NCBI GenBank assembly: GCA_037478935.1
Contig: JBBFLR010000012.1
Span: 1 to 33,016 of the forward strand
From: Candidatus Methanosuratincola sp.
GTDB lineage: Archaea > Thermoproteota > Methanomethylicia > Methanomethylicales > Methanomethylicaceae
Direction of reading: 5' to 3'
DNA length: 33,016 nt
In this document: piece after piece, positions 6,680 to 29,380 of the stretch
Layout: each line of letters begins with the position of its first letter
How positions within the stretch are numbered: position 1 is the first letter of the stretch
Position numbers and translations under genes: made by a program
The notes under the pieces: model-generated
Databases searched by the model: none
What the model saw: the letters and a program-made list of their open reading frames with translations, nothing else
What the model was told of the DNA's origin: nothing

Positions 6680-8896
6680 TCACGTGTCGTAGTCGTCGAT
6701 CGAGAGCTGTCTGGTGCCTTTTCTCGACGCCACGGAGGACCACTCCTCCTTGGTGATGGTCCCTCCAACCTGCTCCAGTATTGACTTCACGGTCTCCGGC
6801 CCTATCTGGGGGATCCTCCTCAGGTCAGAGAGAGAGGCGCGCTTAAGGTCTTCGATGCTACGGTATCCTGCAGAGTAGAGCGCCCTTGCCCTTACCCTCC
6901 CAATCCCCCGCAGTGATATCAGCGGCAGGAGCTCGTCCCTGATGCCGTTCTCGACCCTCATGAGGAGCCTCCTGATCGGTTCCGCCGACTCGCGGTAGTC
7001 CAAGAGCCTTGCGAGCTCGTGCGCAGCGTTGAGAAGCCACTTGGCAGACTCAACGTAGGCGTAAATATCCCCTGACCCGATGTCAAAGTTATCGACAATC
7101 ACTTCCTCAGGCGTCTCATCGATCCACTCCCTCAGCAGGAGCGCGGTCTTGAGCTCCGACATAACCATCTCGCGCTCGAACTCTTCTTCAGGCACCTCGA
7201 AGAGCAAGAGGTCTGCGTTTGACTCAAGGTAGGACTCGAGCGACTCGACCTCCTTACCCCTGACGTACAGCTTGGGCATGTCCGGCGTGTGGCATACCAG
7301 TGCGAGGTAGCTCATTGCAGGCAACCCGGATCTCCTCAGGGTGAGGGCCCGTAGGATAATCTCTGCAGACTTCGGGTCGATGTAGAGCTCTGCAACTCTC
7401 TTGCCGAGCGCGGTGGGCTCAAGCCACTCTCCCTCCTTATCCTCTTTTACCATCCCGGCATGGATGAGGAAGGAGACCGACTCGAGGATCGAGCTCTTGA
7501 AGGAGTCTATCCCGTACTGGTAGGCGCAGAACGACTCCTCGAAGAACTCAATTATCCCGCCCCTCGAACGCGCTAGCCCCATAGCCACGGCTGCGAGTAC
7601 CTGTGACCTGAGCGACGGGGCGACGCCCAGCTTGGACCAGACCTTCTCGGGCTTCGCGAGGAGGTACTGTTCGATGAGGAAATCCTTTTCCTCCTCGGAC
7701 CTTGAGAAGAGTATCGCCTCGCCGAGCCTGTCGTACCTGGGCCGACCTGCCCTCCCGGCCATCTGCTTGTATTCCAGAACCGGTATATTGACCCTCCCTA
7801 CGCCGGGCTCGAAGCGCCTGTAATCGTAGATGAGGACGCGCCTTGCAGGGGTGTTTACGCCTGCCGCGAGCGTAGGTGTGGCGCAGATGCACTTGATATG
7901 CGCAGAACGGAACGAGTCCTCTATCGCCTTTCTCTGGGGGTACGTTAGTCCTGCATGGTGGAAGGCTACGCCGCAGGAGACTGACTTTGCGAGCTTTTCG
8001 GTCAGCTTTGTGCGCTCCCCGAGTGAGAGTATCCTCTCTGAAAGCGCCTTCAGCCTGGACTTTTCAGATGCCCTGAGCTCCCTCTGGACTGGCCCCTCGA
8101 GCCTCTTCGCGAGCGAGACGGCAGAGTTCCTGCTCCCGGTGAAGACCAGCAACTGCCCGCCGGACTTTATTGCGTCTACAGCCAGATCCGCAACAGGGTC
8201 CCCGCTGCCGGACGGCGGCACCTGCCTCGACTCCCCGTCCAGAAAAGTTATGCTCCCCCGGCAGAAGACGCCCTCTTTGAGCGGGACAGGGCGCCAATCG
8301 CTCGTGACGAGCTCTGCCCCCAGCCAGCCGGAGAGCTCTTCTGCGTTGCTGACGGTCGCGCTGAGCGCCAGCACTTGGACGTCCATCTTAAGGTACTTTA
8401 TCCTGGTTAGGATCGACTCCAAAGTGGGGCCCCTCGATGGCTCCCCGAGGAGGTGGATCTCGTCGGCGACCACGAGGGAGAGGCGGTCGACCCAGGGCGG
8501 GCTGTGGCGGAAGAGTGAGTCCGCCTTTTCGTTGGTGGCGATTATGAGGTCGTACCTGCCGAGCTCCGGGTCGAGCGTGTCATAGTCGCCGCTGCTCATC
8601 ACGACCCTGATGCCGATCCTTTCGAGGCGCCTGAACTCGTCGAGCTTCTCGGAAGCGAGGGCCCGAAGGGGAACGAGGTACAGGACTTTGCCCTTCCGCT
8701 CGAGTATGTGCTTTATGGCGCAGATCTCTGCCACGAGCGTCTTTCCAGAAGCGGTCGGGACTGCGAGGACAAGGTTCTTCCCTTCAAGGACGCCGGATCT
8801 CAGCGCGATCTCCTGGGGAGGGTAGAGTTCGGTTATCCCGCACTCCGAGTAGATCTGCTTAGCCTTCCCGTCGATCTCGAGTTCATCTACCTTAAT
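6680..8896 (-). CDS. hel308: ATP-dependent DNA helicase Hel308, apparent ATT start
   Basis: This is a Ski2-like superfamily 2 helicase that unwinds stalled replication forks. Reading upstream of the first GTG (8734) in frame restores the Q-motif region LYPPQEIALRSG and Walker A VPTASGKT, which any working protein needs. Before these there is no in-frame ATG, GTG or TTG: an in-frame TGA lies at 8903-8905. The best start is ATT at 8896, giving IKVDELEI, with GGTGA about 6 bases upstream and length 738 residues. Later motifs are ADEIHLL, ALSATVS and MAGRAGRP. A helix-hairpin-helix region around LRGIGRVRARALYSAGY and IPQIGPETV closes the protein. The end QLSIDDYDT resembles a PCNA-interacting peptide. 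The 12-nt gap to mcm indicates co-transcription. Confidence 0.93.
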   Translation of the reverse strand: MKVDELEIDGKAKQIYSECGITELYPPQEIALRSGVLEGKNLVLAVPTASGKTLVAEICAIKHILERKGKVLYLVPLRALASEKLDEFRRLERIGIRVVMSSGDYDTLDPELGRYDLIIATNEKADSLFRHSPPWVDRLSLVVADEIHLLGEPSRGPTLESILTRIKYLKMDVQVLALSATVSNAEELSGWLGAELVTSDWRPVPLKEGVFCRGSITFLDGESRQVPPSGSGDPVADLAVDAIKSGGQLLVFTGSRNSAVSLAKRLEGPVQRELRASEKSRLKALSERILSLGERTKLTEKLAKSVSCGVAFHHAGLTYPQRKAIEDSFRSAHIKCICATPTLAAGVNTPARRVLIYDYRRFEPGVGRVNIPVLEYKQMAGRAGRPRYDRLGEAILFSRSEEEKDFLIEQYLLAKPEKVWSKLGVAPSLRSQVLAAVAMGLARSRGGIIEFFEESFCAYQYGIDSFKSSILESVSFLIHAGMVKEDKEGEWLEPTALGKRVAELYIDPKSAEIILRALTLRRSGLPAMSYLALVCHTPDMPKLYVRGKEVESLESYLESNADLLLFEVPEEEFEREMVMSELKTALLLREWIDETPEEVIVDNFDIGSGDIYAYVESAKWLLNAAHELARLLDYRESAEPIRRLLMRVENGIRDELLPLISLRGIGRVRARALYSAGYRSIEDLKRASLSDLRRIPQIGPETVKSILEQVGGTITKEEWSSVASRKGTRQLSIDDYDT

Positions 8897-8908
8897 ACTG
8901 ACTCACCC

Positions 8909-10978
8909 TCAAGCCTTCTTCAGCTCGCCGTGCTTGGGCTCGTAGATTACCCCCTGGTTTATCCATTCGGTGACCGCCTTCTCGACGAACCTCCTGTCCA
9001 GTCCTTCCAACCCAGCGCGCTCGATCAGCGCCTCTTTCCTTATCGGCCTGCCCTCGTTCTCCTTCTCCATCTCCCTGAATATGTCGAAGAGCTGAGCCAT
9101 CTTGTCACCCTGCGATTTGGGGTGCCCGACCATTATCGTGTCGATGTCCATCTTACCGGTCGAGGAGTCTATCCCGACCTGCTTCAGGAAAGTCTTGAGG
9201 AGCCTGATCACGGACTGTACGTCCTCCTTCGAGACCTCCTTCTTGAGTGCGAGCTTAGCCCTGGCCTCTGAAAGCCTAATGACTGCCTCGAGCTGCCTCA
9301 TGGTGATCGGGACCGGGGAGTCTGCGCCCTGCCCCATCGCCCTCATCTCGAGGAAGAAGTCCTCGATTGCCTTGCTGGCCTCTTCGCCTATCTTGGGCGA
9401 CCCGTGCTTCCTCACATAGTAGATGTACTTCTTTAGCAGCTCCGGGTCTATGGGGGGGTCCTTTGTAACGCGGATTCCCCGGTGGAGCTTGAGTATGTGC
9501 TCGGTCATCTTCCTGTCCCTGAGCTCGTCGGGGCGGTCGAGCAGCGTGAATATGAGGTCGAACCTTGAGAGGATCGTGACGGGTAGGTCGTTGATGTTCT
9601 CCGAGATCGTCTTCTGCGTGACGTACCTGCCGAAGCTCGGGTTCGCTGCAGCGAGAATGCTGCTCCTTGCGTTGAGCTGGACCACAATTCCTGCCTTGGC
9701 TATGCTGATTGTCTGTTGTTCCATCGCCTCGTGTATGGCGGATCTGTCTTCGGGGCGCATCTTGTCGATCTCGTCGATGCAGGCTATCCCCTTGTCGGCG
9801 ATGACGAGGGCCCCGGCCTCTAGGAAGAACTCGCCTGTGTTCTTATCCCGAATGACAGTCGCCGTGAGGCCCGCGGCGGTTGACCCCTTCCCGGAGGTGT
9901 AGACTCCGCGGGGGGCTATCCTCGAGACGTACTGGAGGAGCTGGGACTTCGCAGTTCCCGGGTCGCCCACCAGCAGGATGTTGATGTCGCCCCTGATCTT
10001 GATCCCGTCTGGCATGATCTTTGTGACCCCCCCTGCGAGCTGGTATGCCACCGCCTCCTTTATCTCGTCGTACGCATAGATCGAGGGGGCGATCGAGCCG
10101 ATGAGCTTGTCATAGAGGTTGGGGTCTGAGGCGAGCTTCTTTATCGCCTTCTCGTCCTCGGGGGTGATGGCTACTTCCTCGGTCCCCCTCTCGGCTATCT
10201 CCAGGTGGTTAGCCTCTATCCCGGAGGAGAAGGTCGCGAGCCTGAAGCCCCTGGAGGTGAATTCCTGCTTTGCCTGCAGTATGCCTACGAGCGAGACCCT
10301 GTCGCCCGGCCTGGAGGTGTCGACTATGTCGCCCTGGAGGATGCCCTCGACAGAGCGCGGGAGTTGGCCGGGGGGCAGCTCCTCCGGTTTCTCCTGTACC
10401 GATATAAGCTGCCAGTCGACGAACTGGGATTCCTCGGGGAGGAGTCTAAAATACCCCTTCCTGGCACAGTCCTGGTTCGTGCACTGCGACGGGGGTATCA
10501 GAATGTTGCCCGTCTGCTCCAGAACTATCTTCTCCCCGCAGCGCGGGCACTGGTAGACCGCAGTCTTCAGCAGCTGCTTCACTGCGGATGCCCTTGTGAT
10601 TATCCCTTCCACCATGATCAGCTTTCCCATGTGCGCCGACTTGAGCGACCTGAGCGGGACGACCTCGTCGAGCTTCCTGAACCTCGCCTTGAAGTTCTTT
10701 ACCTTCGAGGCATACTGCATATTCTCTGCACGCATCGCATCGTAGATCGCGGCGTTTACCTTAGGCATCAGCTCAAGGGGCTTCTCCTTTATCTCCTTGG
10801 CCAGGTCCGGGTCGAAGGAGATTACGTCCTCAAAGTCCACCACTAGAGAGGTCTTCCCCTGGGAGGCCATGCTGGACATGGCATCCCTGTACTTGAAGGC
10901 ACCCTTGCTGTCCTGGAACTCCTTCAGGAAGCTTACGAAGCGTTCACGATAATCCAAGATCTCAACAGCCTCGGTCAT
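8909..10978 (-). CDS. mcm: Replicative DNA helicase MCM
   Basis: This is the hexameric replicative helicase. The N-terminal domain has a zinc site CPRC...CTNQDC and the OB-fold stretch GKLIMVEGIITRASAVKQL. The AAA+ core carries Walker A GDPGTAKSQLLQY, Walker B CIDEIDKM, sensor 1 AANPSFGRY and the arginine finger ILSRFDLIF. A winged-helix domain ends the protein (RKEALIERAGLEGLDRRFVE). I place the start at the ATG at 10978 (689 residues). It has GGAG about 10 bases upstream and leaves 5 bases after the gins stop. The GTG at 11014 would overlap gins23 by 31 bases and is less likely. No intein is present. Linkage with gins23 and hel308 groups fork functions in one transcript. Confidence 0.97.
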   Translation of the reverse strand: MTEAVEILDYRERFVSFLKEFQDSKGAFKYRDAMSSMASQGKTSLVVDFEDVISFDPDLAKEIKEKPLELMPKVNAAIYDAMRAENMQYASKVKNFKARFRKLDEVVPLRSLKSAHMGKLIMVEGIITRASAVKQLLKTAVYQCPRCGEKIVLEQTGNILIPPSQCTNQDCARKGYFRLLPEESQFVDWQLISVQEKPEELPPGQLPRSVEGILQGDIVDTSRPGDRVSLVGILQAKQEFTSRGFRLATFSSGIEANHLEIAERGTEEVAITPEDEKAIKKLASDPNLYDKLIGSIAPSIYAYDEIKEAVAYQLAGGVTKIMPDGIKIRGDINILLVGDPGTAKSQLLQYVSRIAPRGVYTSGKGSTAAGLTATVIRDKNTGEFFLEAGALVIADKGIACIDEIDKMRPEDRSAIHEAMEQQTISIAKAGIVVQLNARSSILAAANPSFGRYVTQKTISENINDLPVTILSRFDLIFTLLDRPDELRDRKMTEHILKLHRGIRVTKDPPIDPELLKKYIYYVRKHGSPKIGEEASKAIEDFFLEMRAMGQGADSPVPITMRQLEAVIRLSEARAKLALKKEVSKEDVQSVIRLLKTFLKQVGIDSSTGKMDIDTIMVGHPKSQGDKMAQLFDIFREMEKENEGRPIRKEALIERAGLEGLDRRFVEKAVTEWINQGVIYEPKHGELKKA

Positions 10979-10983
10979 AGGAA

Positions 10984-11547
10984 CTACTCCGGTGAGATGA
11001 TCTTCTTCCGCCACTCGTCTACCTCTTCCCTGATTGAATTGAAAAGGGCGAGCTCCTCCGGCTCGAGCATGTCGAGAGAGGGGCGGAGGGGGTTCCTCTC
11101 CCGTGCCAGTTGAAGGATCTTCTGCAGCCTGCAGTTCACCAAGTCCTGAGCCTTCATGAAAGACTGCCGGTGCTCGCTCAGGAGGGTGTGGGTTGGGTTG
11201 CTCTTTATCGCCTCATTAAGCGAAGCCAGCAGGCGCCTGAGCCGAGGGTAGAAGTGGCTCGGCAGCTTTGAGAGGCCCTCGTTCCGTTCCTCCTTCCAGC
11301 AGAGCTTGTACAGCTCTGTTGATTTCAGCCCCTGGAACTCCTCTCCTGATAGCCTGACGAAGCCCTCCGCCTCGAGTATCCTGGCGACCCAGATCGGCAG
11401 ACGCTCCTCTCTGCCCTCCTCGCAGGCTCCAAGGTCCATGCCACCGACGGACATCGCAGGGAAAGCCTTGATGAATGTGACTGGTACCAGCTCCTCCTCG
11501 TAGAAGAACTGAGAGTGCCTGATGCTTTCGGAGGGATCTGTGGGCAT
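10984..11547 (-). CDS. gins23: GINS complex subunit, Gins23 type
   Basis: GINS bridges MCM and the Cdc45-like nuclease in the archaeal CMG complex. The 187-residue protein has the small beta-rich B domain first (ELVPVTFIKAFPAM to LPIWVARILEAEGFVRL). The helical A domain follows (LPSHFYPRLRRLLASLN and the long helices to the end). This B-A order is that of Psf2/Psf3, hence Gins23 rather than Gins51, which has A-B. Gins23 next to mcm is also known from Sulfolobus. The ATG at 11547 sits 28 bases from a strong TATA box, suggesting a leaderless first gene of the block. Identity as GINS is firm; the subtype rests on domain order. Confidence 0.85.
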   Translation of the reverse strand: MPTDPSESIRHSQFFYEEELVPVTFIKAFPAMSVGGMDLGACEEGREERLPIWVARILEAEGFVRLSGEEFQGLKSTELYKLCWKEERNEGLSKLPSHFYPRLRRLLASLNEAIKSNPTHTLLSEHRQSFMKAQDLVNCRLQKILQLARERNPLRPSLDMLEPEELALFNSIREEVDEWRKKIISPE

Positions 11548-11570
11548 AGGCTAGTCAGACGAGACTACGC

Positions 11571-11580
11571 ATTTTAAAGC
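11571..11580 (-). promoter_or_regulatory. TATA box driving the gins23-mcm-hel308-pncB-eno block
   Basis: GCTTTAAAAT on the minus strand is centred about 28 bases upstream of the gins23 ATG. I see no comparably strong promoter further into the block until the weak element before pncB. Confidence 0.55.
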
Positions 11581-11669
11581 TTTAACCTCTTCGGATTCCT
11601 CCGGCTGCACTGTTCAATCCGGATTAGACCGGAAGGGGCGCCGCCGGAGGAGAGGCCGCGAACCCGCCG

Positions 11670-12389
11670 TTACCTCGGACGGCGTGAGATCACCTTTAGT
11701 GACGCGTAAGCGGGTATAGCGATCGTAATTCCGACCAGGACCTGACCGATGTTGAACGGCACCTCGGCTATCGCGGCATATCCCAGGAACAACTGCTCGT
11801 AGAGGAAGTAGCCTACAACCATCACCGATCCTGAGGCGAGAGCCGAAAGGGCAATGTACCCGGCCTCTTGACGTGCAGAGAATGAGGCGTATGCCACCAA
11901 GAGGGCAACAGCCCCCCCAACTAGTGCCCAGAATGCGGAGGAAAGCTCCACAACGAAGCTATAGGAACCGATCCAAGGAAGCCCGATCGAAACCTCTGAT
12001 GATCCGGAATAGAAGAAGGTTCCAACGGCAAAGATCAATGAGAAGACGATCACGCCCGCCGCAATTGAGAGGAGCCTCCACCACCTCTTCTGGAGTTCAG
12101 GGCGCCGCGAGACCAGAACCCCAAGGAGAAAACCTTCAAGCCCTTTGATCACGAGCGTTGCGGGGGCAAAGAGATAGTATCCGAGGACAAGGTCTGCGAG
12201 CATTGATCCGACCCCACCGGCGAAAGCGCCTATCCTCGCGCCTCCAAGGAGGGCGGCTAGGAAAACCGCGGATTCCCCGACGTTGAAATACCCCCTCGTC
12301 GCAGGCACGTAGATTGTGAAGGCGACCGTCGCCACGGCTACAAGGGATGTGTAGAAGGCGGTAACCGGGATGTCCCTTGCAATGCGCAT
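11670..12389 (-). CDS. ECF transporter S component-like membrane protein
   Basis: About six hydrophobic segments are present over 239 residues. The segment FNVGESAVFLAALLGGARIGAFAGGVGSMLADLVLGY followed by APATLVIKGLEGFLLG is characteristic of ECF-type substrate-binding (S) components of vitamin transporters; in the riboflavin and HmpT-like groups the pattern is very similar. I place the start at the ATG at 12389, because residues upstream of it in the open frame are hydrophilic and unlike the family. No ECF ATPase or T component is in the window, so the protein must use a shared module or work alone. The substrate is not determinable. The gene is convergent with nothing; it is downstream of and divergent from rfcS. 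Confidence 0.8.
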   Translation of the reverse strand: MRIARDIPVTAFYTSLVAVATVAFTIYVPATRGYFNVGESAVFLAALLGGARIGAFAGGVGSMLADLVLGYYLFAPATLVIKGLEGFLLGVLVSRRPELQKRWWRLLSIAAGVIVFSLIFAVGTFFYSGSSEVSIGLPWIGSYSFVVELSSAFWALVGGAVALLVAYASFSARQEAGYIALSALASGSVMVVGYFLYEQLFLGYAAIAEVPFNIGQVLVGITIAIPAYASLKVISRRPR

Positions 12390-12679
12390 ACTGGTTCGCC
12401 GGATGAAAGACGGTCGCCGACGGGATATTAGCCTTGTGGTTGAATTCTGTAAATGCCCCCTCAGGAGAGGTCCATGCGGGATAGCATTACTGGAGCCTAG
12501 AAGCTTATGGCCGCATCCAACCGAGGCAAGCGGGTTAACTTCGGAATGCAGTTGAAGAGACAATCACCCGGAGGGGTAAAGGGCGTAATTCCAGCAACCG
12601 CTGGTCTAGCTGGTCGCCAGACAGGCCTCCGTGTAGGTTAAATACCATTTCCTTAAGATCGAAACAGGAGGGGAGACGA
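12390..12679. other. Divergent intergenic region between the ECF S component and rfcS
   Basis: About 290 bases carry no credible gene. The right part holds the rfcS promoter. Toward the S component there is a short dyad GTCGCCGAC at 12413-12421 and a TATA-like TAATATCC on the minus strand. I looked for a riboswitch-like fold ahead of the transporter gene and saw none that I recognise. Confidence 0.5.
12637..12646 (+). promoter_or_regulatory. TATA box of rfcS
   Basis: GTTAAATACC is centred about 38 bases upstream of the TTG start, leaving a short leader that contains the strong ribosome-binding element GGAGGGGAG at 12667-12675. Confidence 0.5.
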
Positions 12680-13645
12680 TTGTCAGCACACGAGGTTATG
12701 TGGACAGAGAAGTACAGGCCCCGGACCCTGGACAGCATAGTGAACCAGACCGAGATCGTCGAGAGGCTGAAGAGGTTCGTGAAGGAGAAGTCGATGCCGC
12801 ACTGCCTCTTTGCAGGGACACCGGGGACAGGGAAGACGACCGCGGCGATGTGCCTTGCCAGCGACCTGTACGGAAAGGAATACAAGAAGAATTACCTTGA
12901 GCTCAACGCGAGCGACGAGAGGGGGATCGACGTCATTAGGACGACCGTAAAGGACTTCGCAAGGACCGTGGGGATGGCCGACGCCCCCTTCAAGATACTC
13001 GTACTGGACGAGGCCGACAACCTCACGGCTGATGCGCAGCAGGCGCTGAGGAGGACTATGGAGATGTACACGGCGACCTGCAGGTTCATCCTATGCTGTA
13101 ACTACTTCAGCAGGATAATAGAGCCGATACAGTCGAGGTGTGCCTTCTTCAGGTTCGTTCCGCTCAAGCCTGAGGACGTGAGGGCAAGGATTGCCTACAT
13201 CTGCAAGCTCGAGAACGTAGAGATCACAGAGAAGGGTATTGACGCGCTCATCTATGTCGGCAACGGGGACCTCAGGAAGGTGATAAACACGCTCCAGGCG
13301 GCTGCCGCCACCTCGGAGGTCGTGGACGAGGGCGTGATCTACAGGATAGCCGGGAGGGTCAGCCCAAAGGAGATCAAGGAGGTGCTGGCTGACGCCCTCG
13401 GGGGAGACTTCAAGTCTGCGCGTGAGAGGGTGATAGGCCTTATGGTGGAGTACGGCCTCTCCGGGCTCGATGTTGTCAAGCAGATACACAGGGAGGTGCT
13501 CGGGTTAAACATAGAGGAGAAGGCGAAGCTGAGGATAATCGAGGCAGTCGGGGAGGCGGAGTTCAGGCTGCTCCAGGGCGGCAGCGACGAGATCCAGATA
13601 AACTCGATGCTAGCAAAGGTGGCAGGCCTAGGGCGTGAAGAATGA
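12680..13645 (+). CDS. rfcS: Replication factor C small subunit
   Basis: This is the clamp loader subunit that, with RfcL, opens and places PCNA on primed DNA. The 321-residue AAA+ protein has the RFC box WTEKYRPRTLDSIV at the N-terminus, Walker A GTPGTGKTTAA, Walker B ILVLDEADNLT, the SRC arginine-finger motif (IQSRCAFFRF) and the C-terminal collar domain (LSGLDVVKQIHREVL to the end). TTG at 12680 is chosen because GGAGGGGAG lies 5 bases before it. The ATG at 12698 would lie beyond good spacing and inside the conserved N-terminus. No intein is present. rfcL follows after 45 bases. Confidence 0.97.
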   Translation: MSAHEVMWTEKYRPRTLDSIVNQTEIVERLKRFVKEKSMPHCLFAGTPGTGKTTAAMCLASDLYGKEYKKNYLELNASDERGIDVIRTTVKDFARTVGMADAPFKILVLDEADNLTADAQQALRRTMEMYTATCRFILCCNYFSRIIEPIQSRCAFFRFVPLKPEDVRARIAYICKLENVEITEKGIDALIYVGNGDLRKVINTLQAAAATSEVVDEGVIYRIAGRVSPKEIKEVLADALGGDFKSARERVIGLMVEYGLSGLDVVKQIHREVLGLNIEEKAKLRIIEAVGEAEFRLLQGGSDEIQINSMLAKVAGLGREE

Positions 13646-13690
13646 AAGGATGATTAAAAGAGTAAAAGAAAGATCCGGCGGGGATGAGGA

Positions 13691-14866
13691 TTGACAGGAG
13701 AAGGGCTGCCATGGACAGAGCGGTTCAAGCCCGCGCATCTCATGGAGATTGTTGGGAACTATGCTTCGGCTGAGCAGCTGCTAAACTGGGTTAGGAGAAG
13801 GCTCGAAGGAGGGGAGGGGGTCAAGAAGGGCGCAATGCTCTACGGACCGCCGGGCACGGGCAAGACGCTCTCTGTCGAGCTCGTCGCCAAAGAGCTCAAT
13901 CTCGAACTGATCGAGATGAACGCAAGCGACTTTAGGACAGAGGAACTCGTTGAGAAGGTGGCAGGAGGGGCGGCATCTCAAGCCTCCCTATTCGGTAAGA
14001 GGGGGAAGCTGATCTTTATGGACGAGATAGACGGCATCTCCGGAAGGGAGGACAGGGGCGGGCTCTCATCCATTATCGCTACGATAAAGGCTTCTAAACA
14101 CCCGGTCGTCGTCGGCGCAAACGATCCATGGGACCAGAGGTTCAGGAGCCTCCGCGAGATCTGCGAGATGATCCAGTTCAGGAGGATAAGGAGCCAGAGC
14201 ATCGTCGTCTTTCTGAGAAAGGTCGCCAAGAAGGCCGGAGTGGCGGTAACAGACGGGGCGCTCGAGCGCATAGCAGAGTTCTCGAACGGCGACCTGAGGG
14301 CGGCAATAAATGACTTCCAGATGCTCGCCACCGGCAGGCAGACTCTCAACGAGCTGGAGGTGAGGGGGCTCCAGTTCAGAATACAGGAGCGGGGGTCATT
14401 TGACGTCATGAAGGAGCTCTTCTCCTCGAAGAGTGCCCTCGAGGCCAAGCTCGCGCTTGAGGGGACTGCGATGGATCCCGAGATGTGCCTTCAGTGGATA
14501 AACGAGAACATTCCTAACCAGTACCAATCGCCCCGGGAGATGGTTGAAGCGTACGACTGGCTCTCGAAGGGCGACGTGTTCCTGGGCCGTGTCAAGAGGT
14601 GGCAACTCTGGGACCTGATAGGCTATGCGCTCGAAATCGCAGCCGGCGGGGCAGCCTTGGCCAAGAGCGGCGAGTACAGGTTTGTGAGGTACAGCTTCCC
14701 CAGGAGGATCAGTGTGATGAGCCAGACCAAGGAGGAGAGGGGGGCCAAGCGGGAGGCGCTTGATTTGATTGCCAAGGCGAACCACGTCTCCCGCAAGAAG
14801 GCGACATTCGAGTACATCCCATACATCCAGATCATCTCAGGGGCTGCGCCCAGCGGCCCGGACTAG
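13691..14866 (+). CDS. rfcL: Replication factor C large subunit, short form
   Basis: This is the large subunit of the clamp loader. It shows PWTERFKPAHLMEIVGN, Walker A GPPGTGKTLSVEL, Walker B LIFMDEIDGI and the sensor segment VVVGANDPWD. The collar region contains FDVMKELFSS and SPREMVEAYDWLSKGD. It lacks the SRC motif, as expected for RfcL. At 391 residues it is shorter than many archaeal RfcL proteins, which usually carry a charged tail ending in a PCNA-interacting peptide. This one stops at SGAAPSGPD with no such motif. The start is TTG at 13691, preceded by GGGGATGAGGA. Its stop is one base from the stop of the convergent mobB-moaA gene. Confidence 0.95.
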   Translation: MTGEGLPWTERFKPAHLMEIVGNYASAEQLLNWVRRRLEGGEGVKKGAMLYGPPGTGKTLSVELVAKELNLELIEMNASDFRTEELVEKVAGGAASQASLFGKRGKLIFMDEIDGISGREDRGGLSSIIATIKASKHPVVVGANDPWDQRFRSLREICEMIQFRRIRSQSIVVFLRKVAKKAGVAVTDGALERIAEFSNGDLRAAINDFQMLATGRQTLNELEVRGLQFRIQERGSFDVMKELFSSKSALEAKLALEGTAMDPEMCLQWINENIPNQYQSPREMVEAYDWLSKGDVFLGRVKRWQLWDLIGYALEIAAGGAALAKSGEYRFVRYSFPRRISVMSQTKEERGAKREALDLIAKANHVSRKKATFEYIPYIQIISGAAPSGPD

Positions 14867-14867
14867 G

Positions 14868-16286
14868 TCACCTGTAGAAGGGCTCCCTGGCAGCTACGGC
14901 AGACATGAAGAGCTCCCTGAGCTGGCCGTCAGTCCACCCGGACCTGATCCCCCCGAGGAGGTCGATAAGGAGGTCCCCTCTCATCAGGCAGGGCTTTATC
15001 TTACCGTCGCTGGTGATCCTTATCCGGGTGCACCCTGCGCAGAAGGCAGGGTTGTTTACAGGTCGGACGACCTCGATCGGAAGGCCCTTGACTAGGTATA
15101 TGTGCCTCCGGTTCATCTCGCCCCTCTCAACCACAGCTTCAGAGGCTCCCGAGAGCATGTTTTCGGTTTGGGCGAGGTCGACGTGGTATCTCTCAAAGAA
15201 GCCCTTGTCCAGGTGGAGGTCCTCGAGCTCTATGAGCTGGAGATGGGAGGAGTGGCTGCGCGCAAAATCCACGATGTCATCGAGGCTTGAATCGTTTATG
15301 CCTCTCATCACAACAGTGTTTATCTTCACATGGATCCCAAGCCTGCGGGCTGCCTCGAGCCCCTCGACCACATTCGAGAGGTCACCGCCCGTTATCGATC
15401 GGTAGACGGTCGGATCGACGCTGGGCAACGAGACGTTCAACCTGCGGAGGCCTGCCTCATAGAGTTCAAGGGCGCGCTCTCTCAGGAGTTGACCGTTTGT
15501 GGTCACGCCGACGTCCTCGAGCCCGAGGGCGTAGGAGTAGGCAATAATCCCCCCCAGATCCTTCCTGAGAAGCGGTTCACCCCCAGTGAACTTGACCCTC
15601 CGCATACCGAGATCCCTGGTCACGCGGAGTATCCTGAGAACTTCGTCAGTGAACATCTCTCCTGAGGACGGTCCTTCACCCTCGTGGTGGCAGTAGATGC
15701 AGTTCAAATTGCACCGCTGCGTCAGTGACATCCTTATGCCAAGGATTCGCCTGCCGTACCTGTCGGTCAGGGTTCTTCTCCGACCCGGCGCCAGGAACCG
15801 GCTCTCAATGAAAGCCGCAACCGCCAACGGGTCGTAGGGGAGGCGGGCGACGCTGCCAGCCGGCGCGGTCTCGGCCTTGAAGACGAAAGCAGCTACATTC
15901 TGCAGCCGCATGCCCTGCCCCAGCTCCGATGGCTCGATTATGGCTATCTTCTGCAGCTCAGAATCCTTGAACCCCTCGCATAGGACTATATCAGAGTCGA
16001 AGATTGATGCTAACCTAATCGCCAAGGGAAGGTCGGCATTTTTGGAGCAGACCTCGAGATGCCCGTTGGGATGCAGGAGGGCAGATGCCGTGGCACCGGC
16101 CTCGCGGAACTTCCAAGTGTCCTTCCCTGTGTCGTGTATCTCACCGTGTGCCGAATGCTTGACCGCGCAGACCCTGTAGCCCATACCGGTCAGAATCTTT
16201 ATGACGCCCTCCAGAAGCGTGGTCTTACCTGCGCCGCTATGGAAGGAGACTATTGCCAGGGCAGGGGGGCGCCGCATCCGCATCAT
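14868..16286 (-). CDS. moaA: MobB-MoaA fusion: GTP-binding MobB domain and radical SAM GTP 3',8-cyclase
   Basis: Two molybdenum-cofactor activities lie in one chain. Residues 1 to about 165 are MobB-like: P-loop SGAGKTTL (18-25), AVKHSAHG, HDTGKDTWKFREAGA and the VLCEGFKDS region. From about 178 comes MoaA: the radical SAM motif CNLNCIYC (C192, C196, C199), FTGGEPLLRKDL, TTNGQLL, NTVVMRGIND, and the C-terminal second cluster CAGC plus a later cysteine in GKIKPC. MoaA makes the cyclic intermediate that MoaC converts to cPMP. The terminal Gly-Gly found in many MoaA proteins is absent; the chain ends REPFYR. The start ATGATG overlaps the moaB stop (ATGA). It is the last gene of the cdc6 operon. 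Confidence 0.93.
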   Translation of the reverse strand: MMRMRRPPALAIVSFHSGAGKTTLLEGVIKILTGMGYRVCAVKHSAHGEIHDTGKDTWKFREAGATASALLHPNGHLEVCSKNADLPLAIRLASIFDSDIVLCEGFKDSELQKIAIIEPSELGQGMRLQNVAAFVFKAETAPAGSVARLPYDPLAVAAFIESRFLAPGRRRTLTDRYGRRILGIRMSLTQRCNLNCIYCHHEGEGPSSGEMFTDEVLRILRVTRDLGMRRVKFTGGEPLLRKDLGGIIAYSYALGLEDVGVTTNGQLLRERALELYEAGLRRLNVSLPSVDPTVYRSITGGDLSNVVEGLEAARRLGIHVKINTVVMRGINDSSLDDIVDFARSHSSHLQLIELEDLHLDKGFFERYHVDLAQTENMLSGASEAVVERGEMNRRHIYLVKGLPIEVVRPVNNPAFCAGCTRIRITSDGKIKPCLMRGDLLIDLLGGIRSGWTDGQLRELFMSAVAAREPFYR

Positions 16287-16807
16287 CCACGGACCATTTT
16301 TATCAGGTGGGGGGCCTCGGGGAGGATTATCCTCTCTACCGCCATCTTTACTGCCTCAGGCGATCCGGGGAGCACGAAGACAACGGTCCCATTCACGACA
16401 CCCGCAGCAGCACGTGATGCTATCGCCGAGGTGCCTATGGACCCATACGAGAGGTACCTGAAGATCTCGCCGAATCCCGGGATCTGCTTCTCGAAGATGG
16501 GGGCGACCGCTTCGATCGAAACATCGCGTCTGCTCAGGCCGGTTCCCCCGATTATTATGATGACATCGGTCGAACCCGAGACCGTACACGACTTCGCCTC
16601 TCTCAATATGGCTTCGATCCTGTTAGGCAGATAGATCCGTTTTGAAACCTTGAAGCCGTGGCTGAGGATCAGCGAAATGGCAACATCCCCGCTTATATCC
16701 TGGTACGGCTGGCCCTCTTCCTTCGCAGACACAATTGTATCGCTGGTGACAATCACCGCGAAACGCAGGCTTTTGGGGAGGTCCTCATGGTGATCAGCTG
16801 AGTGCAT
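16283..16807 (-). CDS. moaB: MoaB/MogA-type molybdopterin adenylyltransferase
   Basis: The protein activates molybdopterin by adenylylation before metal insertion. A MoCF domain covers the chain: FAVIVTSDT at the start, DVIIIIGGTGLSRRDVS with the family GGTG..xRD motif, IPGFGEIFRYLS, and VFVLPGSPEAVKMAVE. I choose the ATG at 16807 (174 residues), 4 bases after the moaC stop and preceded by GGGGGAAT. The longer open frame to 16849 would overlap moaC. The short gap to moaC and the overlap with mobB-moaA indicate one transcript. Confidence 0.92.
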   Translation of the reverse strand: MHSADHHEDLPKSLRFAVIVTSDTIVSAKEEGQPYQDISGDVAISLILSHGFKVSKRIYLPNRIEAILREAKSCTVSGSTDVIIIIGGTGLSRRDVSIEAVAPIFEKQIPGFGEIFRYLSYGSIGTSAIASRAAAGVVNGTVVFVLPGSPEAVKMAVERIILPEAPHLIKMVRG

Positions 16808-16811
16808 TGCT

Positions 16812-17252
16812 CTATTCCCCCTTATACTTGTTGAGGACGCGGATCTCACTGATAAATGTCTCTGGGTATTGCCCTTTTTCGTCCTTCTCGTACTTCTTCG
16901 TCATGTCCCAGATCGTGAGCAGGGCAGCAGAAACTCCGCACAGGGCCTCCATCTCTACCCCGGTCTTGGCAACTGCCCTTACCCGAACGGTGCATTCGAC
17001 GCATTCTGAACCGACGGCGAAATCGACAGAGACGTGATCGACAGGTATCGGGTGGCAGAGCGGTATGATCTCGGAGGTCCTCTTGACTGCCTGGATCGCA
17101 GCCACCCTCGCAACGGCCAGGACGTCCCCCTTCTCAACCGAGTTGGTTTTGATAAGGCCGATGGTCTTTGCCTTGAGCTTTATCGAACCGCCCGCAACAG
17201 CAACCCTCAGGATCGGAGGCTTATCCCCCACATCGACCATCTTGACGCTCAT
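16812..17252 (-). CDS. moaC: Cyclic pyranopterin monophosphate synthase MoaC
   Basis: MoaC converts the 3',8-cyclised GTP made by MoaA to cPMP. At 146 residues it is close to the family length. Key segments are the N-terminal MVDVGDKP, IKTNSVEKGDVLAVARVAAI, IPLCHPIPVDHV with the active-site histidine, TGVEMEALCGVSAALLTIWDM with the acidic pair, and DMTKKYEKD, which holds the catalytic Asp and Lys. The family usually has ALTG or ALVG; here it is ALCG. The ATG at 17252 overlaps the upstream stop by four bases. Confidence 0.95.
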   Translation of the reverse strand: MSVKMVDVGDKPPILRVAVAGGSIKLKAKTIGLIKTNSVEKGDVLAVARVAAIQAVKRTSEIIPLCHPIPVDHVSVDFAVGSECVECTVRVRAVAKTGVEMEALCGVSAALLTIWDMTKKYEKDEKGQYPETFISEIRVLNKYKGE

Positions 17253-17527
17253 GGTTTCTGACCCCGCTTTGAGAACGAGTCGAAGAGGGTCTTGATCGCC
17301 CAGCCGCGGGGGTCTTCCTTCTTGAACTTGAATATCCTGACCCTGCCGAACCTCTTCTCCTCTATCACCCCTATCTTGCAGAGCTCCTCGAGGTGTGCGG
17401 AGGTCGTAGTGTGGTTCAGCTTTGTCCTTCTGGTGATCTCGGATATGTTCATCTCCCCGCTCTCCGCGAGCGCCTTCAAGACCTTCACCCTACCCTTTGA
17501 AGAGAATATTTCTTCAACAGCCATCAC
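17249..17527 (-). CDS. Small winged-helix (ArsR-like) transcriptional regulator
   Basis: This 92-residue protein is a single winged helix-turn-helix: IFSSKGRVKVLKALAESGEMNISEITRR, then the recognition part TKLNHTTTSAHLEELCKIGVIEEKR and a wing at FGRVRIFKFKKE. There are no cysteine or histidine clusters that would mark a metal sensor, so the effector is unknown. The start is GTG 17527, overlapping the cdc6 stop as GTGA, or the next codon ATG 17524. Its place between orc1/cdc6 and moaC, with overlaps on both sides, suggests it could regulate this operon. That is inference. Confidence 0.85.
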   Translation of the reverse strand: MMAVEEIFSSKGRVKVLKALAESGEMNISEITRRTKLNHTTTSAHLEELCKIGVIEEKRFGRVRIFKFKKEDPRGWAIKTLFDSFSKRGQKP

Positions 17528-18717
17528 TTCAACACCGCCGAGAGGTTCTTCTCTACAGCCTCAACGGAAAGATTCAACATCCCTATTAGCGTTGTTTTCC
17601 CCCTGAAGCCTGCGCCGGATATCTTCGTGTACAGTATCCCAAGGTTCTTCAGGTTCTGGAGGTACTCCCAGAACTGCGTATGCTTCCTTGCCTCGAGTTT
17701 CATGTCCTCGCAGAGCACGCGGTAAGCGGACTCGACCTCCCCCATCGTGACGTAGGCAGATTTGGTCCTCTTCAGTGCCTTCGCAACGGAGAGGAGGAAG
17801 AGCCTCTCGTGGAGGGGCAGCTCCAAGACTATCTGCATTGGGAACTGCGAGACGTCGAGCTGGGCTTTTCTCACGTGCTCTGGCAGCACCTTGTGAGTGA
17901 CCTCGGAATCGGCGTACTTGCCCGCCCGCCAGAGGAGCTCGAGTGCATACCGCGCATCCCCCCGGGGTGAGGCCATGTCAGAGATCATGAGAAGCAACTC
18001 GTCGTCGATTACCCCTTCCTTGAAGGCCTCCAGAGCCCTGAGCCGGATTATGTCGTACAGTTGGGCGGCAGAATAGTTCTCAAACCTTACGACATTGTGC
18101 AGGAGCGTGCTCTGGACGCTCTTATCCAGACCGGAAATGAAGTCCAGTTTTCTGGTGATGAGGATGAGGCTCATCCGCTGCTTCCGGTTTAGGTACTCGT
18201 CAGTCGCCCTCGAGAGGAAGTAGAGCGGGGCCTCTTTCTCTCCTGCGACGGAGATCAGAAAGTCGATCTCGTCGAGTGCAAGCAGCAGGTAGATGCCCTC
18301 GTCCTCGAGCGTCTTCCAGAGGGTCTCGAACAGCTCCTGCGCGGAGAAACCCCTGTCCGGAATCGCCGGTATGATGTGCTGCGCCACTTTTTTCACGACG
18401 AGGAAGAGCGTCCTGTCCTTGTAGCAGTTGACGTGTACGTACCTGAGGTCGATGCCCCTCTCCTTTGCTATGGACTCGAGGGTCGAGCCGAACCGCTTCG
18501 CCACTGCAGTCTTTCCTACGCCAACGTCTCCAACGAGGGTGACCTTCTGCGAAACAGCCCCAGGAGTTTCAAGTATTGCCCTGAAAACCCTGCTCAAGGA
18601 CCTTAGCTGTGGTTCCCGGTGGACTAGGTTCATAGGGACGTGGTCAGGGAAGAGCTTGGACTCGTCCTTGAAGACGCTGGGGCGCCCGATCTCGCCGGAG
18701 ATTATCTCGTATGCCAA
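17524..18717 (-). CDS. cdc6: Orc1/Cdc6 family replication initiator
   Basis: This is an origin-binding AAA+ protein that recruits MCM. Its N-terminal segment FPDHVPMNLVHREPQLRSLSRVF is typical. Walker A is GDVGVGKTAVAKRF, Walker B IYLLLALDEIDFLI and sensor 1 LILITRKLDF. Sensor 2 is in SPRGDARYALELLWRAG. A C-terminal winged helix (LFLLSVAKALKRTKSAYVT to LKNLGILYTKISG) completes the 397 residues. The start is TTG at 18717 with AGGT about ten bases upstream. A TATA-like element lies at 18751-18760. It is the first gene of an operon otherwise devoted to molybdenum cofactor synthesis. Archaeal origins often sit beside cdc6, but I do not see convincing origin boxes in the 89-bp upstream gap. Confidence 0.95.
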   Translation of the reverse strand: MAYEIISGEIGRPSVFKDESKLFPDHVPMNLVHREPQLRSLSRVFRAILETPGAVSQKVTLVGDVGVGKTAVAKRFGSTLESIAKERGIDLRYVHVNCYKDRTLFLVVKKVAQHIIPAIPDRGFSAQELFETLWKTLEDEGIYLLLALDEIDFLISVAGEKEAPLYFLSRATDEYLNRKQRMSLILITRKLDFISGLDKSVQSTLLHNVVRFENYSAAQLYDIIRLRALEAFKEGVIDDELLLMISDMASPRGDARYALELLWRAGKYADSEVTHKVLPEHVRKAQLDVSQFPMQIVLELPLHERLFLLSVAKALKRTKSAYVTMGEVESAYRVLCEDMKLEARKHTQFWEYLQNLKNLGILYTKISGAGFRGKTTLIGMLNLSVEAVEKNLSAVLK

Positions 18718-24744: not shown

Positions 24745-25625
24745 AGAGTCTTACAGACGAGGAATACTACCTCCCCGGGAACGCGGCTTGCCCGGGGTGT
24801 GCGGCGGTCATGGCGCTCAGGATAGGGCTCAAGGTGTTAGGTCCGAGAACGATCGTCGTCGTACCTGCCTGCTGCATGTCGGTGGTGCAGGGGTACTACC
24901 CAAAGACGCCATCGAAGGTCCCCATATTCAACACAGCCTTTGCCGCCTCGGCTGCGACGGCAGCCGGAATAAGGGCGGCGCTGGATATAAAAGGGATCAG
25001 GGACGTGAACGTCGTCTGCTGGGCAGGCGACGGAGGGACTGCAGACATTGGCATTCAGTCCCTGAGCGGAGCGGCTGAGAGGGGTGACGACCTGATCTAC
25101 GTCTGCTACGATAATGAAGCCTACATGAATACTGGGACCCAGAGGAGCGGCAGCACGCCTGAAGGTGCGCGGACGACGACCACAATCACGGGGAAGTCAG
25201 AGCGGAAGAAGGACGTCCCGGGAATAATGATGGCTCACAGGATACCCTACGTCGCTACCGCGTGCACATCGTACCCTATTGACTTTGCGAACAAGCTCAG
25301 GAGGGCAGCCTCAATAAAAGGGACCAGGTACATCCACCTGCTCTCTCCATGCCCGCCTGGCTGGAGGTACCCGGCCGAGAAGACGGTCGAAGTGGGCAAG
25401 CTCGCGGTCGAGACAGGGGCCTGGATACTCTACGAGTGGTTCGGAGGGAGGTGCAGACTCACCGGCCCATCTACCGGACTGGCCGAGAGGTCGAAGAGAC
25501 GCCCCCTCGAGCAGTACCTCGAGATCCAAGGGAGGTTTTCCAACGCCGATCCTTCAAAGATAGCAGAGATGAGGAGGCGGATCGACGAAGAGTGGGAGAG
25601 GATCCTCGGACTTTGCCACGACTAG
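24711..25625 (+). CDS. porB: 2-oxoacid:ferredoxin oxidoreductase, beta subunit (TPP-binding)
   Basis: The beta chain binds thiamine diphosphate and one 4Fe-4S cluster. Cluster cysteines are in ACPGC near residue 28 and further in VPACCMS. The TPP/Mg motif is GDGGTADIGIQ with DNEAYMNTG downstream. HLLSPCPPGW near the C-terminal third is typical of the family. The GTG at 24711 has GGAG about 7 bases upstream and begins inside the alpha gene, so translation is coupled. The stop overlaps by four bases the stop of the convergent aminopeptidase gene, so the two transcripts meet end to end. Confidence 0.94.
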   Translation: MGNEGFTAFTLKSLTDEEYYLPGNAACPGCAAVMALRIGLKVLGPRTIVVVPACCMSVVQGYYPKTPSKVPIFNTAFAASAATAAGIRAALDIKGIRDVNVVCWAGDGGTADIGIQSLSGAAERGDDLIYVCYDNEAYMNTGTQRSGSTPEGARTTTTITGKSERKKDVPGIMMAHRIPYVATACTSYPIDFANKLRRAASIKGTRYIHLLSPCPPGWRYPAEKTVEVGKLAVETGAWILYEWFGGRCRLTGPSTGLAERSKRRPLEQYLEIQGRFSNADPSKIAEMRRRIDEEWERILGLCHD

Positions 25626-26623
25626 AGTGTGCAGCCGTCGCGCATGACCACCTCCTTGTTTCCTGAGGAGTAAGTACACTCGACGGTGGGCTTGGAGACG
25701 AGGAAGTCCATGTGCGTCGCTGACTTGTTCCGGCCTCCAGGGAAGTCAGTGTTGTGCCCGAATGCCACGTGGATGGTTTCTGCCACCTTCTCGGCCTCGA
25801 GGAAGCCAGCATTGATCCTTGCCTTCCTGTTTAGACCGAAGGCGAACTCGCCCACATGCCTCGCCATCTCGTCGACTCCCAGTGCGGTCTCGACCCTCGA
25901 GAGTAGGGCCCTGTCCGCGCACCTGAACTCGGTTGCCCGCCCGCCCCTGGCAATTATCTCGAAGGGAGTCTGAATGGGCCCGATGCCCCCTATCGCGAGG
26001 TCGCAGACGATCCTACCCTCGAGGGAGGTCTCCACCGGGGCGACGATCACCTCCCCCGTCGGGAGGTTGCACCACTTGAACAGCCCCCAGTCGAACTTTG
26101 TGTCTGTGAAGAAATCCCTCCCCTCGACGCTGAATGTGATGTCTGTTCCGTTGGGGCTGGTGACCCTGATCGTCTTTACGCCCATCAGACGGTTGATCAG
26201 CCTCCGTGCTGAGGAGTACATCGACCTGTGCTCCTCCTCTGTCAGCGATAGAGCGCCGTCAGTCATCATATCCATGGTTATCCCCGGGCAGTGACCCAGG
26301 CGGAACTTCCTGTACCTCGAGATCAGGTTAATTATGCTCACTCTGAACGGGGTCTCCCTCTCGCTTTCCCTGAAGACTGTGATGAAGATGTCAGAGGCGC
26401 TTCTGGCGACGGACTCGTAGACGCACTTCGGGATCTCGTGCCTTACCCCTTCCCCTGTCTTGAGGGGGATTAGCCTGGTGGCCAGCCCGAGCCCGAGTCC
26501 ACCGAGCGCGAAGGCTTCGCCTATGTCCAACTTGCTGTCGTCGCAGATCACGGTCAGGCGCTCGTTCGGGATCGCATCGAAGACATACTTAATGGCGTTT
26601 TTGGCGGCTTCCTCTGGTTGCAT
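25622..26623 (-). CDS. M29-like aminopeptidase family protein
   Basis: The 333-residue protein resembles the thermophilic aminopeptidase (M29)/NicX-like family. Visible are the NLPTGEVIVAPVE segment with its metal-site glutamates, and near the C-terminus VAFGHNTDFPGGRNKSATHMDFLV, which carries candidate metal-ligand histidines and an aspartate. The middle part TSPNGTDITFSVEGRDFF fits the family beta-rich core. Some members of the family are ring-cleaving dioxygenases rather than peptidases, so the reaction is not settled. The start ATG at 26623 has AGGTGAT just upstream, a strong ribosome-binding match. The gene is downstream of the CODH gene on the same strand, but a terminator-like hairpin lies between them. 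Confidence 0.8.
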   Translation of the reverse strand: MQPEEAAKNAIKYVFDAIPNERLTVICDDSKLDIGEAFALGGLGLGLATRLIPLKTGEGVRHEIPKCVYESVARSASDIFITVFRESERETPFRVSIINLISRYRKFRLGHCPGITMDMMTDGALSLTEEEHRSMYSSARRLINRLMGVKTIRVTSPNGTDITFSVEGRDFFTDTKFDWGLFKWCNLPTGEVIVAPVETSLEGRIVCDLAIGGIGPIQTPFEIIARGGRATEFRCADRALLSRVETALGVDEMARHVGEFAFGLNRKARINAGFLEAEKVAETIHVAFGHNTDFPGGRNKSATHMDFLVSKPTVECTYSSGNKEVVMRDGCTL

Positions 26624-26786: not shown

Positions 26787-28667
26787 TCATTTAAGACCCA
26801 AGAGCGAACGCTTTTCCTCGATGTGGAGTGCGATCTTCTCGGCTGCCTTCATCATGTCGTCCTCGACCAGGAGGGAGCCCCCCGTTATGTGCGCAAGATC
26901 CTGGGAGAGCAACTTCATGAGGCGGGCGCCTCCGACTATGGGAGGAGTGGGCGAAACGTGCGTAAGTACGCCCAGCGCCAGTGCAAAGATCGCGTCGATT
27001 GTAGCCTTCTGCTCCATGTACTGCGGGGCAGTGACCGCGACGGGCAGGTCGGGGATGTCGACGTGGAGCGCCTTTGCGACCTCGGAGACCAAGATTGAGA
27101 GGCGGCCGGTATCCGTGCAGGTCCCGAACGAGAGGACTGGGGGTATGCCCAGCGCTCCGCAGACCTTCTTGAGCCCAGGTCCGGCGAGTTCCCTGGCCTC
27201 CGGTGAGCAGAGTCCGGCTACCTGGAGCGCGGCGTTCCCGCACCCCATAGAGAGGACGAGTATGTCACGGCTTATCAGCTCCCTGGCTATATTGACAGTG
27301 GGCAGGTCGTGTGGGCCGTTGCCCAGAGTGGTGCAGGAGACGAGCCCGACGACCCCCCTTATGCTCCCTGATTTTATCTCCCTCAAGAGCGGCTCCAGCG
27401 TCCCCCCGAGTGCCTCGAGTATCGATTCGATTGAGAATCCGACAACAGCGTTCCGCTTCTCCATTGGAACGCTGCTGGACGAGCCTTTCCTCTTTTTAAA
27501 GTTATCAATCGCAAGGTTTACGAGCTCCTCAGCCTGCCTTGATACCTCTTCCGGCATGAAGTCCACATGTCGTGTTATCCCCGGGACATTCACGAGCGGC
27601 GAGACCGAGACGAAGGTGGTCGAATATCTCTTTGCATAGAGCTCTAGGGAGGGAGGGGAGCAGTTCATGTCCATTGCAAACAGGTCTACGGCATTGGTAG
27701 CTATCAGCGGCTCTATTGTGATCCAGTTCCCGGTCATTCCAACATACACGTCGTCCGTGGTTGTCCTCTGGAGGATCTCTTGCCCGGTCTCGATCGAGCC
27801 TATCACATGTATCCCCTTGGCGCCAGCTTCTCGCGCCTTTGCTTGTACGGAGGGGTCCTTACAGCGGCCGATCAGCGCCATTCCGATAAAAGGCTCGTGC
27901 CCGTTAACTACGATGTTAACATACTCCGGGTCTAGGATCCCGAGGTCGAACGAGACGAGGTGCGGGCGGGGCGTCCCGAAGAGCGCGTCCTGCCCGAGCT
28001 CGAGCGGTATCTGTGAGCCGTAGATGCAGGAAAGGGCCAGGCGCATTGCAGTCTTAGCGAGTGAGACGTAGTCGCCGTCCACGTTCGTCAGGCAGTGCGA
28101 CACGGCATCGATCTGCTCGTTTGCAGGGCCGCCGGGGAGTATGCCAAGCCCCCTCCAAGTCTCGATCCTGCCCGTTGTGGCGAACGAGAGGGTGCTGAGC
28201 CTCTCCGACGGGTCGGCATTTATCTCATTCAGGATAGCATTCCCCACCTCGACTGCGAGCTGCGGGTCTCCCTTCGCCTCATCAATGCCGTAGATTCTGG
28301 CGAGCGTCCTGAGCTTGGATGCGTCCTTTATGGAGTAAGGCGTCTTCCCCTGACCCGTTGCGACCAGGGTCTTCGCGACCTCTCTTGCATGGTAGGCGTA
28401 AGTAGAGAGGCCCATTGCATTCCTGAGGAGCATGTAGCGCATCGCCATCCCGTCGGCGTCTATGCCGCAGGTTCCACGCTCGAGCTTGCCCGGGATGATC
28501 CTGCAAGGCCCGTTGCTGCAGAACTGGCAGCTGAGGCCCTTCATGCAGAAGGACCTGCAGCGGACCTGCTCCTGCGCCTGCCACCGATCCCAAACATTTG
28601 TCATCTCTTCAGACTTTAATTTTTCATACATCTTCTTTATCGAGTCGTGAGCGCTGATATCCCGCAT
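26787..28667 (-). CDS. cooS: Divergent Ni-Fe carbon monoxide dehydrogenase catalytic subunit (CooS-like)
   Basis: The 626 residues align along their whole length with CooS, including NVWDRW, GPCRI, LFGTP and VTAPQYMEQKA. For the B cluster, Cys47, 50, 55 and 67 are present. C-cluster ligands His257, Cys336, Cys445, Cys476 and Cys517 and the catalytic Lys554 are retained. However, the position of CooS Cys295 is Glu293 in IGSIETGQE, where CooS has GICCTGNE. Of the four-histidine proton relay only His93 remains. The D-cluster pair is also altered, with Cys37 and Cys41 instead of C-x7-C. It may be an active variant, a different hydroxylamine/CO-like reductase, or inactive. No cooF or cooC lies beside it. 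Confidence 0.85.
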   Translation of the reverse strand: MRDISAHDSIKKMYEKLKSEEMTNVWDRWQAQEQVRCRSFCMKGLSCQFCSNGPCRIIPGKLERGTCGIDADGMAMRYMLLRNAMGLSTYAYHAREVAKTLVATGQGKTPYSIKDASKLRTLARIYGIDEAKGDPQLAVEVGNAILNEINADPSERLSTLSFATTGRIETWRGLGILPGGPANEQIDAVSHCLTNVDGDYVSLAKTAMRLALSCIYGSQIPLELGQDALFGTPRPHLVSFDLGILDPEYVNIVVNGHEPFIGMALIGRCKDPSVQAKAREAGAKGIHVIGSIETGQEILQRTTTDDVYVGMTGNWITIEPLIATNAVDLFAMDMNCSPPSLELYAKRYSTTFVSVSPLVNVPGITRHVDFMPEEVSRQAEELVNLAIDNFKKRKGSSSSVPMEKRNAVVGFSIESILEALGGTLEPLLREIKSGSIRGVVGLVSCTTLGNGPHDLPTVNIARELISRDILVLSMGCGNAALQVAGLCSPEARELAGPGLKKVCGALGIPPVLSFGTCTDTGRLSILVSEVAKALHVDIPDLPVAVTAPQYMEQKATIDAIFALALGVLTHVSPTPPIVGGARLMKLLSQDLAHITGGSLLVEDDMMKAAEKIALHIEEKRSLLGLK

Positions 28668-28711
28668 TAATTACACCGTATTACATATACCTGAACTGCC
28701 TTATAAAAAAC
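28668..28711 (-). promoter_or_regulatory. CODH promoter with a 10-bp-spaced direct repeat
   Basis: TTTTTTATAA on the minus strand (28701-28710) is about 38 bases upstream of the ATG. Between it and the start codon, TGTAAT occurs twice (minus strand of 28670-28675 and 28680-28685) with a 10-base period, one DNA turn. This is a candidate operator. Confidence 0.4.

Positions 28712-29285: not shown

Positions 29286-29380
<95 letters not shown>

Follow-up and report, generated by a model that had tools for sequence, protein, structure and literature searches.

A probable CooS-V-type hybrid-cluster protein with a carbon monoxide dehydrogenase fold is the sole CODH-family gene found in Methanosuratincola-type methanogens

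CooS-V from Carboxydothermus hydrogenoformans has been studied by crystallography and EPR and assayed for activity (PMC9311411). It has a glutamate in place of one of the cysteine ligands of the C-cluster, and it binds an Fe/S/O hybrid cluster and no nickel. CooS-V neither oxidizes CO nor reduces CO2. It reduces hydroxylamine slowly, with a very low kcat/KM of 20 M-1 s-1, and its NO reductase activity was not above background (PMC9311411). The cluster rearranges reversibly and a channel in the protein opens only upon reduction (PMC9311411). When the same exchange was made in CooS-II, the C295E variant lost both nickel and CO activity (PMC9311411). Structural group D-1 of clade D had been classified earlier and was predicted to have a site like that of the hybrid cluster protein (HCP, hydroxylamine reductase); the hybrid-cluster ligand sets of D-1 and HCP are equivalent (PMC6344411). 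A 2026 marine survey leaves such sequences out of the Ni-CODHs because of their hybrid-cluster nature (PMC13240472). Published surveys tie CooS-V-type proteins to organisms with an active CODH, where an auxiliary role has been suggested, and it has been stated that the type is found only alongside another CODH.

The DNA analysed here, referred to as the window, is a stretch of 33,016 nucleotides from Candidatus Methanosuratincola sp. (contig JBBFLR010000012.1). An uninterrupted, full-length frame at 26787-28667 on the minus strand encodes a protein of 626 amino acids. The top NCBIfam match of this protein is the equivalog model of the CODH catalytic subunit, TIGR01702, with 761 bits against a cut-off of 478. 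The HCP family model gives 41 bits against a cut-off of 360.8, which places the sequence far below the HCP threshold. The top match in the PDB is C. hydrogenoformans CooS-V (7b7q) with 741 bits, followed by a match of 418 bits. The protein is 55% identical to CooS-V, 40% to the D. vulgaris CODH and 38% to the Thermococcus AM4 CODH. An AlphaFold2 model (pLDDT 89, pTM 0.91) was compared with known structures using Foldseek. The best matches were the CooS-V structures 7b9a and 7b7q, with TM scores of 0.97-0.98 and an rmsd of 1.4, and the canonical CODHs gave TM scores of 0.94-0.95. The protein is thus probably a hybrid-cluster protein of the CooS-V type, which belongs to structural group D-1 of clade D. 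This type of protein is already published. The present protein is ordinary as such, with a modest use as a test case.

The alignment shows each of the seven residues that ligate the hybrid cluster in CooS-V, with their codons on the minus strand. They are His257 (27897-27899; CooS-V His259), Glu293 (27789-27791; CooS-V Glu295, Cys in canonical CODHs), Cys336 (27660-27662; CooS-V Cys338), Cys445 (27333-27335; CooS-V Cys449), Cys476 (27240-27242; CooS-V Cys480), Cys517 (27117-27119; CooS-V Cys521, the persulfide cysteine, PMC9311411) and Glu552 (27012-27014; CooS-V Glu556 and HCP Glu494, Ser or Thr in canonical CODHs), the last of which has its role as a ligand described for CooS-V (PMC9311411). 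Asn335, directly before Cys336, corresponds to CooS-V Asn337 and is Gln in the canonical CODHs. Lys554 is kept at the position of CooS-V Lys558, and Glu552 lies two residues ahead of it. A functional Ni,Fe-CODH has five Cys and one His as ligands, and here one of these cysteines is Glu293. The initial annotation, made from the sequence alone, was right that Glu293 replaces Cys295 and that the five other C-cluster ligands are kept, but it overlooked Glu552 as a ligand of the hybrid cluster. It also listed the catalytic lysine and the B-cluster cysteines as conserved, and the alignment bears this out for Lys554 and for Cys47, Cys50, Cys55 and Cys67 (28467-28529, minus strand). Compared to canonical Ni,Fe-CODHs such as CooS-II and D. 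vulgaris CooS, the protein shares the fold, His257, four C-cluster cysteines and the B-cluster, and differs at Cys295 (Glu), Ser/Thr552 (Glu), Gln335 (Asn) and the catalytic His (Tyr).

The canonical relay motif is HSDH, whose two histidines we take to be His93 and His96 of CooS-II. In the corresponding region of the present protein (28389-28400, minus strand), Tyr90 occupies the position of the catalytic His93, as it does in CooS-V, and His93 occupies the position of canonical His96. The earlier claim that only His93 of the relay stays is correct in that a His93 is present, but this is so in the protein's own numbering only, and the residue aligns with CooS-II His96. In the published table, D-1 likewise has Tyr at the acid-base His position (PMC6344411), in agreement with Tyr90. 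Other features shared with D-1 as published are the Glu for the first C-cluster Cys, the Lys, and the Glu two residues before the Lys (PMC6344411). The D-cluster is where the protein departs from both CooS-V and D-1. Its motif, Cys37-X3-Cys41 (28545-28559, minus strand), aligns with Cys38-X2-Cys41 of CooS-V. The second cysteine is present, leaving a pair of cysteines per subunit. The altered spacing noticed at the outset is thus type-III-like, as in CooS-V, with one inserted residue: the full motif is CX3CX5C, and type III is CX2CX5C. The insertion is found in all Methanomethylicaceae rows in which the region is intact, and in three further loci (L013, L014 and L016). The D-1 label as printed in PMC6344411 strictly fails on this spacing and the protein is therefore filed here under the CooS-V type. 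The CX3C motif could bind a cluster that differs from that of CooS-V. In summary of the likeness to CooS-V, the seven ligands, the Asn337 and Lys558 positions, the Tyr at the catalytic His and the two D-cluster cysteines are shared; the D-cluster spacing is not, and the host is an archaeon in which no other CODH was found.

The residue at position 293 is Glu in 87/87 clade rows, a set that includes one duplicate of the window protein, and Cys in 20/20 canonical rows. No cysteine occupies the Cys295 place in any row of the clade. In the tree a single branch with a support of 100 and a length of 1.41 separates 80 Glu-type rows, CooS-V and the window protein among them, from 19 canonical rows; long branches meet at this split, and only the split itself was used. 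No row is knowingly from the published groups of clade D that retain the Cys (D-2 to D-4). Against its six nearest relatives the gene has a dN/dS of about 0.05-0.08, and is under strong purifying selection.

Relatives of the protein at 87-91% identity come mostly from organisms named Candidatus Methanosuratincola. The host genome (1.52 Mb, 96.5% complete) contains mcrA and belongs to a Methanosuratincola-type methyl-reducing methanogen. Methanosuratincola has been described as a methyl-reducing genus (PMC12244365) and Verstraetearchaeota MAGs lack a complete Wood-Ljungdahl pathway (PMC6783470). A profile search of the host genome gave one match to the CODH family. Among 22 genomes of the family Methanomethylicaceae, a full-length CooS-V-type copy is present in 14, the copy is partial or broken in three (G006, G019 and G021), and no copy was found in the remaining five. 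In G021 the gene consists of two pieces that overlap and contains a TAG (contig C31, 23645-25509), which is either a broken gene or an assembly error. None of the 22 genomes, the host included, has cdhA above the cut-off, and CdhC was found in none of the 14 family genomes searched for it, again including the host. The same searches did detect cdhA and CdhC in relatives of the same class, which indicates that they work. These genome-wide absences come from profile searches of draft genomes, in which absence is never proof; loss during assembly is an unlikely cause of the missing CODH genes because many genomes agree. HCP was above the cut-off in only one family genome, G017 (L156, contig C11, 19853-21460, 731 bits), and this genome has no CooS-V-type gene. 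A swap between HCP and the CooS-V type is only a hint since it comes from a single HCP-bearing genome.

The Methanomethylicaceae are therefore an exception to the published co-occurrence, as the CooS-V type is their sole CODH-family gene. G072, G073 and G080 may be further exceptions if their genomes are complete enough; each has one CODH-family match and no cdhA above the cut-off. A possible second, canonical CooS in G002, a genome of the genus Methanosuratincola (fragment L152, on contig C72), was considered as a case of co-occurrence and rejected. The contig looks like contamination because a 684-aa protein on it is only about 32% identical to its orthologue on contig C1 of the same genome and 30-32% identical to the orthologues of the genus. 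No description of a CooS-V-type gene in Methanosuratincola or Verstraetearchaeota was found in the openly accessible literature. The status of the gene as the only CODH-family member in methanogens without CODH/ACS may be new, in a modest way. A CooS-V-type protein that is under strong selection in culturable methyl-reducing methanogens without CODH/ACS would uncouple the role of this type from CO metabolism. The annotation "carbon monoxide dehydrogenase" is also misleading in Methanosuratincola-type genomes.

The neighbours of the gene are an M29-family peptidase, a 2-oxoacid:ferredoxin oxidoreductase and a helicase. Neither cooF, cooC nor an ACS gene is adjacent, as had been noted before, and the COG1063/HypAB association reported for D-1 is absent from the immediate context. 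The M29 peptidase gene (25622-26623, minus strand) is downstream and co-directional, and two genera of the family keep the two genes side by side. No M29 homologue adjoins the gene in L006, L007 or L009, and the eleven loci checked outside the family also lack this neighbour. The adjacency looks like local conservation of gene order and gives no strong functional clue. Seven upstream regions from the nearest loci were aligned. A TATA-like box, TTTTTATAAG (28700-28709, minus strand), about 33-42 nt before the ATG, is conserved in the genus, and a GGTG element resembling an RBS (28674-28677, minus strand) is invariant in all seven loci. No operator-like block was seen beyond these two elements, and a scan for sigma-70 promoters gave nothing, as expected for an archaeal host. 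The intergenic region upstream of the gene also contains a tRNA-Glu (CTC) at 29286-29380 on the minus strand; its length of 95 nt may reflect an intron.

By homology to CooS-V, the protein would be a homodimer with the CODH fold that very probably contains an Fe/S/O hybrid cluster instead of the Ni,Fe C-cluster and has no CO activity. Electrons would enter at a subunit-bridging [2Fe-2S] cluster ligated by Cys37 and Cys41, pass through the [4Fe-4S] B-cluster (Cys47, Cys50, Cys55 and Cys67), and reach the hybrid cluster bound by His257, Glu293, Cys336, Cys445, Cys476, Cys517 and Glu552. In the reduced, [4Fe-3S] form the gas channel would be open and a small oxidant could be reduced. Once oxidized, the cluster would have oxo bridges and Cys517 would carry a persulfide, and the channel would be shut until the cluster is reduced again. 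The likeliest physiological role, put forward tentatively, is that of a low-potential reductase that guards a strict anaerobe from a reactive nitrogen or oxygen species. A somewhat more doubtful reading is that in the Methanomethylicaceae the protein works alone, independent of CO and acetyl-CoA metabolism and in the niche occupied elsewhere by HCP, and that its CX3C motif makes for yet another version of the bridging cluster.

Other readings of the gene have to be weighed against a protective reductase. A canonical ligand and the catalytic histidine positions are lost, which might suggest a decaying pseudogene or a sequencing artefact, but this is refuted by the intact full-length frame, the dN/dS of 0.05-0.08 and the identical residues in all 87 rows. 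The initial annotation had considered the gene a maintained variant rather than a pseudogene, which these data support; its further idea that the protein might bind another kind of metal cluster or carry out a different reaction agrees with all the evidence, and has been demonstrated for CooS-V, the closest characterized relative. Could the protein still be a true Ni,Fe-CODH and oxidize CO despite having Glu in place of Cys295? The CODH equivalog is the best NCBIfam match, well over its cut-off, and genetics cited in two papers suggested that the CooS proteins of M. acetivorans help in CO removal (PMC6344411, PMC4652020). These genetics do not fit neatly with an inactive CO site. However, CooS-V is without nickel and CO activity, the C295E variant of CooS-II lost both (PMC9311411), Tyr is at the catalytic His93 position, Glu552 is present, and cooC and cooF are not adjacent. 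CO oxidation is therefore very improbable.

A role as a redox or gas sensor, in which reversible rearrangement of the cluster signals the redox state without significant turnover, is the least easily dismissed of the alternatives, though an unlikely one. Redox-sensing and regulatory roles have been proposed for clade D in an eLife 2026 survey (PMC13056359), and CooS-V turns over very slowly yet restructures reversibly (PMC9311411). Against a sensor, no regulator gene was recognised beside the gene, its upstream region lacks a conserved operator-like block, and a channel that stays closed until CooS-V is reduced points to a reductase (PMC9311411). The substrate of the reductase could instead be one peculiar to methyl-reducing methanogens, perhaps with a functional link of the protein to the M29 peptidase or to the 2-oxoacid:ferredoxin oxidoreductase. 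The gene order kept in two genera favours such a link, and reduced ferredoxin might come from the adjacent oxidoreductase. The peptidase gene is however not beside the gene in L006, L007, L009 or the eleven non-family loci, and many bacteria and archaea of other physiologies have the same active site, which makes a methanogen-specific substrate improbable.

Elsewhere in the window, a single ORF at 14868-16286 on the minus strand combines a MobB domain with a MoaA-like radical SAM domain, and it adjoins genes for MogA/MoaB-like and MoaC proteins and an ArsR-type regulator. Genes for replication proteins, namely a Hel308-like helicase, MCM, GINS, two RFC subunits and Orc1/Cdc6, lie within 6680-18717, and a replication origin may be located near this cluster.
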